A stretch of DNA of 64,000 nucleotides. Origin: Deltaproteobacteria bacterium. GTDB lineage: Bacteria > Desulfobacterota > Syntrophia > Syntrophales > UBA2185. Numbering within the stretch: the first letter of the stretch is position 1; the number at the start of each line of letters is the position of its first letter. The translations under genes were made by a program, and so were the position numbers. Location: contig JAPLJS010000053.1 in assembly GCA_026388545.1 (NCBI GenBank), forward strand, positions 1 through 64,000, in the 5' to 3' direction. The notes under the pieces were generated by a model that did not search any database, was not told the origin of the DNA, and saw only the letters and a program-made list of their open reading frames with translations. Shown one piece after another: positions 15,684 through 20,254 of the stretch.

Positions 15684-17558
15684 CTACTCCTCCAGTTGTT
15701 CAAAAACCTTACGGAGCCTGCTTAAGAGATCTTTTTCATTCTCCCCTGTTACATTCGGCGACACCAGCGCAGGGGCTGCGCCGTCACGGGACTGTTCTAT
15801 CCTCTTATACGTGGTAATATCATCACTTCGCTCAGAAGGGGGCAGAGAATTCGGTTCAACGGATTTCTCATTCGTCTTCTTTTTTCTGTGTCTCGATCTC
15901 CGTCTGGGTTTCTTTTTAATTGGCTGCGGGCTTGTCTCACTCAGTTCATCAGTCTTTTGTGGTGACTCACCGGCCTCAGCGGCAATTGATGGAGTTTCAA
16001 AGAGTTCGGCGATTTCTTCTTCTTTTTTATCCATTTCCTCTTCCAGGCGGCTTTCCTCCTCAGGAGGAGCTTCCTCAACAACATCCTTACTGACGGATTC
16101 GATTTTCACTTCATCCCATTGCGTGTCAGCACTTCCGGAAATATTAATGGACACGCCATGGGCGCTTTCAAGTTTACTGATTTCGTTTCTCTTTCGGTTC
16201 AGAAGGAAGTCGGCGATTTCGTATGGCAGTTTTAATTTAAGAACAGAATAATCTCCCTTGACTACCTGAGATTCAATTTTTCTAAAGGCGCCCAGCGCCG
16301 TGTATTCCAGGGACGGCCTCGCACCGCGTCCCTTACAGTAAGGACAGACGGTATAACTGATCTCTTGAATGGTCGATTGTTTTTTCTGTCTCGAGAGTTC
16401 AAGAATTCCGAACTTGGATATGCGCGACATCTGTATCCTCGCCCTGTCGACATTAAGGGCCTTTTTGAAAGCCTTTTCCACTTCGGCTTCATTTTTTCGA
16501 TCACGCATATCGATGAAGTCAATGACGAGCAGTCCACCCAGGTCTCTCAGGCGAAGCTGCCTCGCTATCTCCTCTGCCGCTTCAAGGTTAGTTCTGAAGG
16601 CGGTTTCTTCAACATTTCTTTTGTTCGAAGCCCGGCCCGAATTAACATCAATCGTAATCATGGCTTCTGTAGGATTTATAATGATGGATCCTCCGGATTT
16701 CAATTCTACCCGATCCTGGTAAATGACACGAATCTGATCTTCAAGTCGATATTTATCAAAGAGAGGGGTCTTTTCCTTATAGAATTTGATCATTTTTAGA
16801 ATCCTTGGGAGAACAGCTTTGGAGTATTCTCTCATTTTTCTATATGTTTCGACGTCATCTATAAGGATCTCTTCGATTTCCGATGTATAGTAGTCACGAA
16901 GAGAACACACACCAAAATCACTTTCCTGATAAATGAGTGCCTGTGAAGAAACGGTCTGCGCTCTCTTCTGAATCTCCTTCCATAACCTTGACAGGAGTTG
17001 ATAATCCCGGGAGAGTTCCTGCTTCGTTCTGTTCATGCCTGCAGTTCGGATTATAAAACCAACCCCGTCGTCAATCTTGATTTGCTCCATTAATTTTTTA
17101 AGCCGCTTGCGATCTTCTTCATCGTCTATTTTTCGCGAAACACCGCTGCTTTGTTTGTTCGGCAGTAAGACCAAGTATCGTCCCGGTAGCGATATATAGG
17201 TCGTAAGAAGAGCCCCCTTACGTTCACTTTCTTCCCTTACCACCTGAACCAACACCCCCTGGCCGGCTTTCAGAGCAGTTTTCTGACTCGCCGGACTACC
17301 TCCCTTTTCACTGTGCTCTGTAAAATATTCCGAACTGACATCGTGCAGGGGGAGAAATCCATCCCTCTTGCCTCCGTAATTTACAAAGGCTGCCTGGAGA
17401 CCACGCTCTACCTTCATAACGATGCCCTTATAAATGTTACCCGTTATTGGTTCTTTGACGGCCATTTGTATGTTGTATTCAACCAGTTTACCGTCATCTA
17501 CTATGGCCATTCGCTTCTGTTCCGGATGAACAGCATTGATTAACATTGCTCTCTTCAT
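15684..17558 (-). CDS. rng: Ribonuclease E/G family endoribonuclease
   Basis: Single-strand-specific endoribonuclease in rRNA maturation and mRNA decay. An S1-like RNA-binding region lies at about residues 35-125. The catalytic segment contains the metal-binding Asp residues in TIDVNSGRASNKRNVEET and LLVIDFIDMRD. The zinc-link cysteines appear as CPYCKGRG. At 624 residues it is longer than RNase G but far shorter than E. coli RNase E. The extra C-terminal 100 or so residues are acidic and then basic (KKKPRRRSRHRKKK), a likely RNA- or partner-binding tail. It follows the Sua5-like gene after 15 bases, with an AAGGA site. Confidence 0.95.
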   Translation of the reverse strand: MKRAMLINAVHPEQKRMAIVDDGKLVEYNIQMAVKEPITGNIYKGIVMKVERGLQAAFVNYGGKRDGFLPLHDVSSEYFTEHSEKGGSPASQKTALKAGQGVLVQVVREESERKGALLTTYISLPGRYLVLLPNKQSSGVSRKIDDEEDRKRLKKLMEQIKIDDGVGFIIRTAGMNRTKQELSRDYQLLSRLWKEIQKRAQTVSSQALIYQESDFGVCSLRDYYTSEIEEILIDDVETYRKMREYSKAVLPRILKMIKFYKEKTPLFDKYRLEDQIRVIYQDRVELKSGGSIIINPTEAMITIDVNSGRASNKRNVEETAFRTNLEAAEEIARQLRLRDLGGLLVIDFIDMRDRKNEAEVEKAFKKALNVDRARIQMSRISKFGILELSRQKKQSTIQEISYTVCPYCKGRGARPSLEYTALGAFRKIESQVVKGDYSVLKLKLPYEIADFLLNRKRNEISKLESAHGVSINISGSADTQWDEVKIESVSKDVVEEAPPEEESRLEEEMDKKEEEIAELFETPSIAAEAGESPQKTDELSETSPQPIKKKPRRRSRHRKKKTNEKSVEPNSLPPSERSDDITTYKRIEQSRDGAAPALVSPNVTGENEKDLLSRLRKVFEQLEE

Positions 17559-17573
17559 AAATATCCTTGTTTT

Positions 17574-18182
17574 TTATATAAGAGTGGACACATCGCCCTT
17601 CCCTTCCCTGATAATCTCTATTGTGTCATCAACAAGACTGACAATACTTGATGGCTCGGAAACCAGAATGCCTCCATCTATGATTAAATCTACACAGTGG
17701 CCGAATTTATCCTTTATTTCAGATGGATTGCTGAATACGTCACCATCTTCAGTTGATACACTGGTGCTGATAATGGGTTGTCCCAGTTCACCGACGAGGG
17801 AAAGACATATTTGATTATCAGGCACTCTGATCCCTGTGGTTAGTCTTTTGGGGAGAATAATCTTCGGAACAAGCCGCGAAGCCTCCAGGATAAACGTGTA
17901 CGGTCCCGGCAAGAGGCGTTTCATGGTCTTATACGCAAAATCCGACACCCGGGCGTAACGGCTAATATCCTTAAGATTGGCGCAAACAAAACTTAACGGT
18001 TGTTTCCTGCTTCTCCTTTTTATCTCATAAATCTTATCGATCCCTTTTTTGTTAAAAAGGCTGCATCCCAGCCCGTAGACCGTATCGGTGGGATAGATGA
18101 TGACTCCCCCGTCCTGCAAGACATCAACGGCCTTTCTTATCAACCGCATCTGGGGATTTTGACTGTTAATGGACAGATACAT
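17574..18182 (-). CDS. L-threonylcarbamoyladenylate synthase (Sua5/YciO/YrdC family)
   Basis: Predicted enzyme that makes threonylcarbamoyl-AMP for the t6A modification of tRNAs reading ANN codons. Motifs of the YrdC fold are visible: GGVIIYPTDTVYGLGCSLFN, IYEIKRRSRKQPLSFVC, PGPYTFILEAS and GIRVPDN, then ISTSVSTEDGDVFSNPSEI. The length of 202 residues fits the YciO/YrdC type without the Sua5 C-terminal domain. YciO-like paralogues have lower activity, so this could be either. It lies between cimA and rng in an apparent operon. Confidence 0.9.
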   Translation of the reverse strand: MYLSINSQNPQMRLIRKAVDVLQDGGVIIYPTDTVYGLGCSLFNKKGIDKIYEIKRRSRKQPLSFVCANLKDISRYARVSDFAYKTMKRLLPGPYTFILEASRLVPKIILPKRLTTGIRVPDNQICLSLVGELGQPIISTSVSTEDGDVFSNPSEIKDKFGHCVDLIIDGGILVSEPSSIVSLVDDTIEIIREGKGDVSTLI

Positions 18183-18288: not shown

Positions 18289-19881
18289 TCAGACATTGTT
18301 ATTTATATTCTCTTCATCCTTGTTCAATTTGTATTGGATACTATCTACGAGGGCCTGCCAACTCGCTTCAATGATGTTTGTAGATACACCTATAGTACTC
18401 CATATATCGCGCCCATCACTTGAATCTATAAGGACTCTCACCTTCGCGGCCGTTCCCTCACAGCCTTCCAGAATCCTTACTTTAAAATCCACCAGATGCA
18501 TCTCATTGATTTGAGGGTAAAATTTCGTCAATGCCTTTCTCAGGGCATTATCCAAGGCATTTACAGGACCATTCCCCTCAGCGGCAGTCAATTCCTCTTC
18601 ACTGCCTACCGATATCTTGATCGTGGCCTGCGATATGGGCGGATTGTTTCCTGTTTTTGCGTTAATTACCTGAAAGCTCTCAAGAACAAACGGCTCTACA
18701 ATCTCACCTTTTATTTTTTTCATCAATACCGAAAGGGAGCCGTCGGCCGAGTCAAAATGATATCCCTGGTCCTCCATTATCTTTATCTGTCGAACGATAT
18801 CTTTATTTATAGCCGTCTCTTTGCCTAAATCGACACCCAGTTCCCTTGCCTTATATGCGATATTACTTTTCCCCGAAAGGTCCGATACCAGCACCCGCTC
18901 ATGATTTCCCACCAGTTCCGGTTTAATATGTTCATATGCGACCGGATTTTTTAAAACGGCATCAACATGTACTCCACCCTTATGAGCAAATGCGCTTCGA
19001 CCAACAAACGGCCTTGAATTGAGCGGGGGGATATTCGCAACATCGCTCACATAATTAGAGAGGTTAGTCAATTGACTGATAGACGCCTCAGGCAGACATC
19101 TCTTATTCATTTTCAACTGGAGGTTGCCGATTATGGAAATAAGGTCGGCATTTCCGCACCTTTCCCCATACCCGTTAATCGTTCCATGAACCATCCTGAC
19201 ACCTGCAAGAACGGCTGCAAGTGAGTTTGCTACGCCAAGGCCACAATCGTTATGGGCATGGATACCGAGGAGATGGGGAGGAATATGAGATGTGACTTCC
19301 TTGATTATTGTGGTTAGATCATGAGTCATTGTCCCACCATTTGTATCACACAGAACAATCATATCAGACCCGGCAGAAAGGGCAGTCTCTATTACTGTGC
19401 GTGCATACCCGGGATTATTTTTATATCCGTCGAAAAAGTGCTCCGCATCAAAGATGACTTCCTTCCCCTTTGACTTTAAATATGCAACAGAATCGCGGAT
19501 CATGTCCAGATTTTCCTCAAGGGATACATTGAGAATATCTGAAAGATGAAGATCCCATGTCTTGCCGAAAATTGCCACTGTCGGCGTCTCGGATTGCAGC
19601 AGAGCCATTATATTAGGACACATTGAGGCATTAATATACGGCTTTCTGGTACTGCCGAATGCTGCAAGACGGGCATGCTTGAACGACATACCCTTCGCCA
19701 TTTCGAAAAAGCGCGCATCTTTTGGATTTGATCCCGGCCATCCGCCTTCAATGTAGTGAAAACCAATCTCGTCAAGACGTTGAGCGATGCGAAATTTTTC
19801 TTCAGCCGAAAAATTGATCTGCTCTCCCTGGGTCCCGTCTCTCAATGTCGTATCATAAAGCAAAACATCTCCTGAATCCAT
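18289..19881 (-). CDS. cimA: (R)-citramalate synthase
   Basis: Condenses pyruvate and acetyl-CoA to citramalate, the first step of the threonine-independent isoleucine route. It belongs to the DRE-TIM metallolyases. The catalytic YDTTLRDGTQGEQINFS is at the N-terminus and the metal-binding HAHNDCGLGVANSLAAV in the middle. GHAHKGG-like FAHKGGVHVDAVLKNP and a C-terminal LeuA-type allosteric domain (from about residue 385) follow. At 530 residues it fits the CimA (TIGR00977-like) branch rather than LeuA or homocitrate synthase. AAAGGGAGGGAG precedes the ATG. An isoleucine-rich leader peptide and terminator upstream support this assignment and indicate attenuation by isoleucine supply. Confidence 0.95.
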   Translation of the reverse strand: MDSGDVLLYDTTLRDGTQGEQINFSAEEKFRIAQRLDEIGFHYIEGGWPGSNPKDARFFEMAKGMSFKHARLAAFGSTRKPYINASMCPNIMALLQSETPTVAIFGKTWDLHLSDILNVSLEENLDMIRDSVAYLKSKGKEVIFDAEHFFDGYKNNPGYARTVIETALSAGSDMIVLCDTNGGTMTHDLTTIIKEVTSHIPPHLLGIHAHNDCGLGVANSLAAVLAGVRMVHGTINGYGERCGNADLISIIGNLQLKMNKRCLPEASISQLTNLSNYVSDVANIPPLNSRPFVGRSAFAHKGGVHVDAVLKNPVAYEHIKPELVGNHERVLVSDLSGKSNIAYKARELGVDLGKETAINKDIVRQIKIMEDQGYHFDSADGSLSVLMKKIKGEIVEPFVLESFQVINAKTGNNPPISQATIKISVGSEEELTAAEGNGPVNALDNALRKALTKFYPQINEMHLVDFKVRILEGCEGTAAKVRVLIDSSDGRDIWSTIGVSTNIIEASWQALVDSIQYKLNKDEENINNNV

Positions 19882-19898: not shown

Positions 19899-19932
19899 AA
19901 AAAAAAACCGCTATCAGATACCCTGATAACGG
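19899..19932 (-). terminator. Attenuator terminator upstream of cimA
   Basis: On the minus strand, CCGTTATCAG (19923-19932) pairs with CTGATAGCGG (19908-19917) around a 5-base loop, with one U-G pair. Nine U residues (19899-19907) follow. It ends only 18 bases before the cimA start and 54 bases after the leader peptide stop, the geometry expected of a transcription attenuator. Confidence 0.85.
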
Positions 19933-19985
19933 ATTCCTCTTACTTTCATGTTTTTTATCGAAACACTACACCACTACCAGGTCTC

Positions 19986-20054
19986 CTATGTCAGGAACCT
20001 AATTATGCCTGCGATGATTATAATGGGTTTTTTGGTGATCATGTTTCCAATCAT
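19986..20054 (-). CDS. Isoleucine-rich leader peptide of cimA
   Basis: A 22-codon open frame on the minus strand encodes a peptide with eight isoleucines, including a run of four (codons 11-14) and a pair (codons 17-18), followed by one leucine. A GGAG/GAGG Shine-Dalgarno-like stretch lies just upstream. It sits between a promoter (20096-20124) and a Rho-independent terminator (19899-19932) in front of citramalate synthase. By analogy with ilv and leu leaders, ribosome stalling at the Ile run when charged tRNA-Ile is scarce would allow an antiterminator and cimA expression. The peptide itself probably has no other function. Confidence 0.85.
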   Translation of the reverse strand: MIGNMITKKPIIIIAGIIRFLT

Positions 20055-20095
20055 GCTGCCTCGTTGCTCCAAAAGGTGAGACTCTATTTGTTCAT

Positions 20096-20124
20096 AATGT
20101 ATAAATATACATACCATTTGTCAA
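20096..20124 (-). promoter_or_regulatory. Sigma70-like promoter of the cimA leader
   Basis: On the minus strand, TTGACA (20119-20124) is followed after 17 bases by TACATT (20096-20101). Transcription would begin near 20089, about 35 bases before the leader peptide start. Confidence 0.6.
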
Positions 20125-20254
20125 CAGAAAAGATACTGTAAGCCATTTACCGCATGTTGCATGCAATAAATTGCAAAGAGAGAAGAATAAAAATTGACCT
20201 CTTCACCGTAGTTGTGTACTTAGGCGAATATTGGTTGATAAAAGGAGATGTACC

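Follow-up and report, generated by a model that had tools for sequence, protein, structure and literature searches.

In the window analysed here, a stretch of 64,000 nucleotides from a genome of the order Syntrophales, the 225 bases in front of cimA very probably form a ribosome-mediated transcription attenuator of the trp/ilv type, which senses charged tRNA-Ile and controls cimA, the gene for (R)-citramalate synthase. We observed the sequence parts of this attenuator, their conservation, and the covariation of two mutually exclusive helices, here called 2:3 and 3:4. The leader region is bounded by a divergently oriented ORF at 20231 and the cimA start at 19881, and its parts, together with the regulated gene and its likely operon, are as follows:

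20119..20124, minus strand: -35 box TTGACA, from the sequence, with TTGAC also ahead of the leader in relatives
20096..20101, minus strand: -10 box TACATT, separated from the -35 box by a 17-nt spacer
20059..20062, minus strand: GAGG, putative Shine-Dalgarno-like sequence ahead of the leader ATG
19986..20054, minus strand: leader peptide ORF MIGNMITKKPIIIIAGIIRFLT, 22 codons, 8 of them Ile, the Ile enrichment being kept in relatives
20001..20006, minus strand: Ile codons 17-18 (ATA ATT), predicted control codons, from conservation and ribosome-mask folding
19993..20003, minus strand: region 1, 5' arm of the 1:2 hairpin, starting at Ile codon 18, from folding
19971..19981, minus strand: region 2 CCTGGTAGTGG, antiterminator 5' arm, shared in part with the 1:2 hairpin, from folding, covariation and a swap test
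19922..19932, minus strand: region 3 CCGTTATCAGG, antiterminator 3' arm and terminator 5' arm, from covariation
19908..19917, minus strand: region 4 CTGATAGCGG, terminator 3' arm, from sequence and covariation
19899..19907, minus strand: T-run of the intrinsic terminator, from the sequence
18289..19881, minus strand: cimA, (R)-citramalate synthase, the regulated gene (TIGR00977, 729 bits against a cut-off of 450)
17574..18182, minus strand: tsaC (threonylcarbamoyladenylate synthase), probably co-transcribed, found within 260 bases after cimA in 23 of 38 loci
15684..17558, minus strand: Rne/Rng-family ribonuclease gene, third in the likely operon by gene identification and order

The leader ORF reads ATG ATT GGA AAC ATG ATC ACC AAA AAA CCC ATT ATA ATC ATC GCA GGC ATA ATT AGG TTC CTG ACA TAG. 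Between it and cimA sits the intrinsic terminator (19932-19899), consisting of CCGTTATCAG-GGTAT-CTGATAGCGG at 19932-19908 followed by nine T down to 19899. The original prediction had placed a TTGACA/TACATT promoter, a 22-codon leader with eight Ile codons (four of them consecutive) and a terminator in this order before cimA, and its coordinates proved exact.

Of 5000 dinucleotide shuffles made from the 5' region, just 3 produced an ORF of 10-40 amino acids with eight or more Ile, and the 64 kb contain 1351 ORFs in this length range, of which a single further one has that many Ile. Ile enrichment, here 8 of 22 codons, is kept in 73 cimA leaders. The promoter match by itself was not above chance (2 sites in 4 kb versus 6.0 expected), and the promoter alone was dropped as evidence because such matches are to be expected; in 32 of 34 relatives, TTGAC occurs in the 110 bases that precede the leader ORF.

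Folding of the leader RNA gave 1:2, 2:3 and 3:4 hairpins, which is the standard attenuator set. The terminator 3:4 has a folding energy of -14.3 kcal/mol, and the antiterminator 2:3 joins region 2 (19981-19971) to region 3 (19932-19922) through 11 pairs at -13.9 kcal/mol; as region 3 is common to both, the two helices are mutually exclusive. The 1:2 hairpin (20003-19976, -11.0 kcal/mol) has its 5' arm starting at Ile codon 18, overlaps the control codons and on energy grounds is the candidate protector; its energy was better than that of shuffles in 60 of 70 relatives, which is an energy comparison only. The original prediction had asked for an alternative pairing that could disrupt the terminator, and the 11-pair 2:3 helix, backed by covariation, is such a pairing.

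Over 70 relatives 91.9% of the 2:3 cells were paired, and 45 cells had changed on both sides against a shuffle mean of 8.4; the observed covariation score was reached in 0 of 500 shuffles, and controls with a slid register were paired at 48.5% at most. For 3:4 the corresponding values were 96.0% paired and 46 double-change cells, again with 0 of 500 shuffles reaching the covariation score and with slid registers pairing far less. As 3:4, unlike 2:3, had guided the alignment, the 2:3 covariation is the cleaner result, and the shared ancestry of the sequences means that the shuffle counts should not be read as probabilities. The same picture came from a MAFFT alignment of 35 relatives. Region 3 belongs to a GC type (CCGCTGCCAGG or CCGCTGTCAGG) in 18 relatives, where region 2 shows matching changes. 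When regions 2 and 3 were swapped between types, the matched combinations bound at -14.9 and -13.2 kcal/mol, and the mismatched ones at -8.7 and -10.7 kcal/mol.

The effect of ribosome position was modelled by masking the bases that a ribosome was assumed to cover, from 17 upstream to 15 downstream of the first base of the A-site codon, in RNA extending no further than region 3. Complete 2:3 pairing resulted when the ribosome stalled at Ile codon 17 or 18, and neither stalls at codons 2, 6 or 11-14 nor a ribosome at the stop codon gave full 2:3 pairing. Codons 17-18 are also the best conserved codons of the leader, with their first two bases at least 90% conserved and among the nearly invariant positions in relatives, and we predict from these models that the decisive stall occurs there. 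A ribosome stalled at the run of four Ile codons (11-14) would be too far upstream to mask region 1 in full, and the run may be a second, weaker sensor. When region 4 was present the terminator formed, and the full-length equilibrium fold contained it in every case, so switching requires 2:3 to form ahead of the synthesis of region 4; known attenuators likewise depend on this order of events. For RNA ending at region 3 and carrying no ribosome, 2:3 was favoured at equilibrium, which means that basal termination needs 1:2 to fold during transcription.

From these features we infer the transcription start, leader translation, stalling, read-through and switching as follows. RNA polymerase would make the leader while a ribosome follows and translates the Ile-rich peptide. 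If Ile-tRNA were scarce, the ribosome would stall at codons 17-18, the last Ile codons and the ones that overlap region 1, leaving region 2 free to pair with region 3; the terminator would then be blocked and cimA transcribed, probably with tsaC and the ribonuclease gene. If Ile-tRNA were plentiful, the ribosome would reach the stop codon and cover the start of region 2, or leave so that 1:2 forms. With region 2 occupied, region 3 would pair with region 4 and transcription would end before cimA.

To assess conservation, cimA loci were gathered from the order and beyond and their upstream regions compared. Within the order they have TTGAC followed by a leader rich in Ile, together with the same four regions. 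A covariance model detected the element in 134 of the order's 155 genomes (a count that includes genomes whose match is an ilvB copy alone) and in 87 of 92 good ones; a class-level search gave the same 155 genomes as the order-level search. Leaders were located with a finder giving Ile, Leu and Val the same weight; the 73 cimA leaders are 32.7% Ile, 5.3% Leu and 3.3% Val, and 19 ilvB leaders 32.2% Ile, 2.3% Leu and 5.6% Val, which points to Ile as the main signal in both cases. The Ile codons are spread over ATT, ATC and ATA, so that what is kept is the amino acid and not one DNA word. Conservation of the Ile codons and terminator in near and far relatives, which had been proposed as a check on the attenuator, was thus found, and together with the covarying 2:3 pairing it supports the interpretation first put forward for this region.

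These comparisons also bear on a reading in which the leader formerly worked and only the terminator now matters, its basal read-through fixing a constant low level of cimA. Parts of the element can decay, as in one relative (G034, L025 1339-1477) where the leader and regions 1-2 are gone and a TTGACA promoter runs directly into a terminator before an intact cimA. In the window, however, all parts are intact, and 2:3 complementarity has been kept across relatives by compensatory change, which makes such a loss of function here very improbable.

Citramalate synthase is the start of isoleucine synthesis in many anaerobes, and cimA is the first committed step of this synthesis in the window's genome. 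Threonine deaminase (ilvA) was not found in that genome; three weak matches turned out to be two cysteine synthase-type proteins and a tryptophan synthase beta subunit. The metabolic argument originally offered for an isoleucine signal, a citramalate route in an organism that has no threonine route, therefore holds. Separately, a single ORF (L149 1432-3588, G000:C114) fuses a cysteine synthase-like domain to an apparent cysteinyl-tRNA synthetase. The genes cimA, tsaC and the Rne/Rng ribonuclease gene lie on the same strand with no obvious intervening terminator (18182-15684). TsaC contributes to the t6A modification of ANN-decoding tRNAs, including tRNA-Ile, and with this role in view the Ile attenuator may also control tsaC.

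A second copy of the element is present in the window's genome (C55:6468-6595), directly ahead of ilvB, with the leader MYSLSIANIAIIIGIIIPCHRGAG and a 2:3 duplex of -20.1 kcal/mol. Counting this copy, ilvB is downstream of 18 of the 20 secondary loci read in the order. One relative (G028, 89% complete) has no cimA above the cut-off, and its copies of the element precede ilvA (608 bits, cut-off 421) and ilvB. At its ilvA locus (L256 1242-2670), a single case, the same element is found with an Ile leader, which suggests that the control is tied to the step in the pathway and not to the particular enzyme. The element is absent before ilvA in other relatives that carry this gene (L252-L255), which leaves the ilvA case with a single genome behind it.

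Outside the order, weaker matches were obtained in 30 of 46 positive genomes of a phylum sample. The 20 loci read there precede cimA, ilvD, leuA or ilvB, and in one instance an acyl-CoA dehydrogenase-like gene (cimA and ilvB were named by tblastn, the others by reading protein starts), and their leaders are richer in Leu and Val, with mixed Ile/Leu/Val composition. In six of them (L235, L236, L238, L240, L243 and L246) the cimA leader has Ile codons followed by a Leu run partly within a hairpin, hinting at joint sensing of Ile and Leu on cimA. Related attenuators with Ile/Leu/Val leaders stand before ilvD-like genes in other phylum members (L232, L233, L239, L242, L244, L245, L247, L249 and L251). 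The acyl-CoA dehydrogenase-like gene, which is not a synthesis gene, has such an element ahead of it as well (L241, G456), with a leader rich in Ile.

Could the short ORF instead encode a functional small hydrophobic membrane peptide, with the terminator incidental or regulating something else? The peptide is indeed hydrophobic and its position is conserved across the order. However, its Ile content is 6- to 14-fold that of Leu and Val, which a membrane helix does not require, and leader length and the positions of start and stop differ among relatives. The codons moreover track the downstream gene, being near Ile-only at cimA and ilvB in the order and Ile/Leu/Val at ilvD, leuA and the genes outside it, and the covarying RNA helices lie after the leader. 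We rejected a membrane micropeptide on the Ile bias and the covarying helices, and give it even less credence than a decayed leader. Control of the same terminator by a metabolite- or tRNA-binding RNA (riboswitch or T-box), acting independently of a translated leader, shares the terminator/antiterminator architecture and has a precedent in the T-boxes associated with leuA-family genes in Bacillota (PMC12452182), but it was likewise rejected and is just as improbable, since no Rfam family, T-box included, matched at threshold and no conserved aptamer was seen, what is conserved being the Ile codons, regions 1-4 and the promoter.

Taking the window's element again as an Ile attenuator, we advance only tentatively the wider idea that it belongs to a module shared by descent across Desulfobacterota, placed at different branched-chain genes (cimA, ilvB, ilvD, leuA) and retuned through its leader codons. 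The module would be Ile-only in this order, would follow the first committed step even when cimA is replaced by ilvA, and may also put tsaC under the control of Ile-tRNA. In practical terms, the element defines a sequence-based regulon (cimA and ilvB) for a whole order known mostly from metagenomes, and the covariance model can be used to annotate it.

Ribosome-mediated attenuation is known for ilv and leu operons. While the mechanism is textbook, its use on cimA, conserved across a whole order, appears undescribed: no description of a cimA attenuator or of leader-peptide control was found in the largely non-subscription literature searched, in keeping with the comment in the original prediction that leaders of this kind are seldom reported for cimA. 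A paper on delta-proteobacterial regulons (PMC545781) does not mention isoleucine, ilv or citramalate. Rfam gave no relevant match to the window's element at the gathering threshold or at E<=10, and the T-box covariance model likewise gave none at either setting. The best relevant Rfam match was Thr_leader (RF00506), at 15.8 bits and E 1.2 against a gathering score of 55.

The closest likeness is to the enteric ilvGMEDA and ilvBN attenuators, in which a leader rich in codons for the end product and three overlapping hairpins are followed by an intrinsic terminator before the structural genes. The window's element has the same type of leader, set of hairpins and terminator placement, but its target is cimA, its leaders are almost purely Ile and not mixed, and the Rfam models detect no similarity. 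The Thr operon leader is an attenuator with Thr and Ile codons; it is alike in being an attenuator, but the match is weak and no homology can be claimed. In Corynebacterium, the ilvBNC attenuator and the uORF of the ilvB-II motif provide uORF-dependent attenuation of branched-chain amino acid synthesis (PMC10272879, PMC11857589); this dependence is shared, whereas the phylum and gene set differ and cimA is not a target. Finally, the leuA-family T-boxes of Bacillota work by direct tRNA binding and have no leader peptide, and the window's element has no T-box match, but in both systems amino acid starvation would relieve termination ahead of the target gene, and the target genes come from the same enzyme superfamily.
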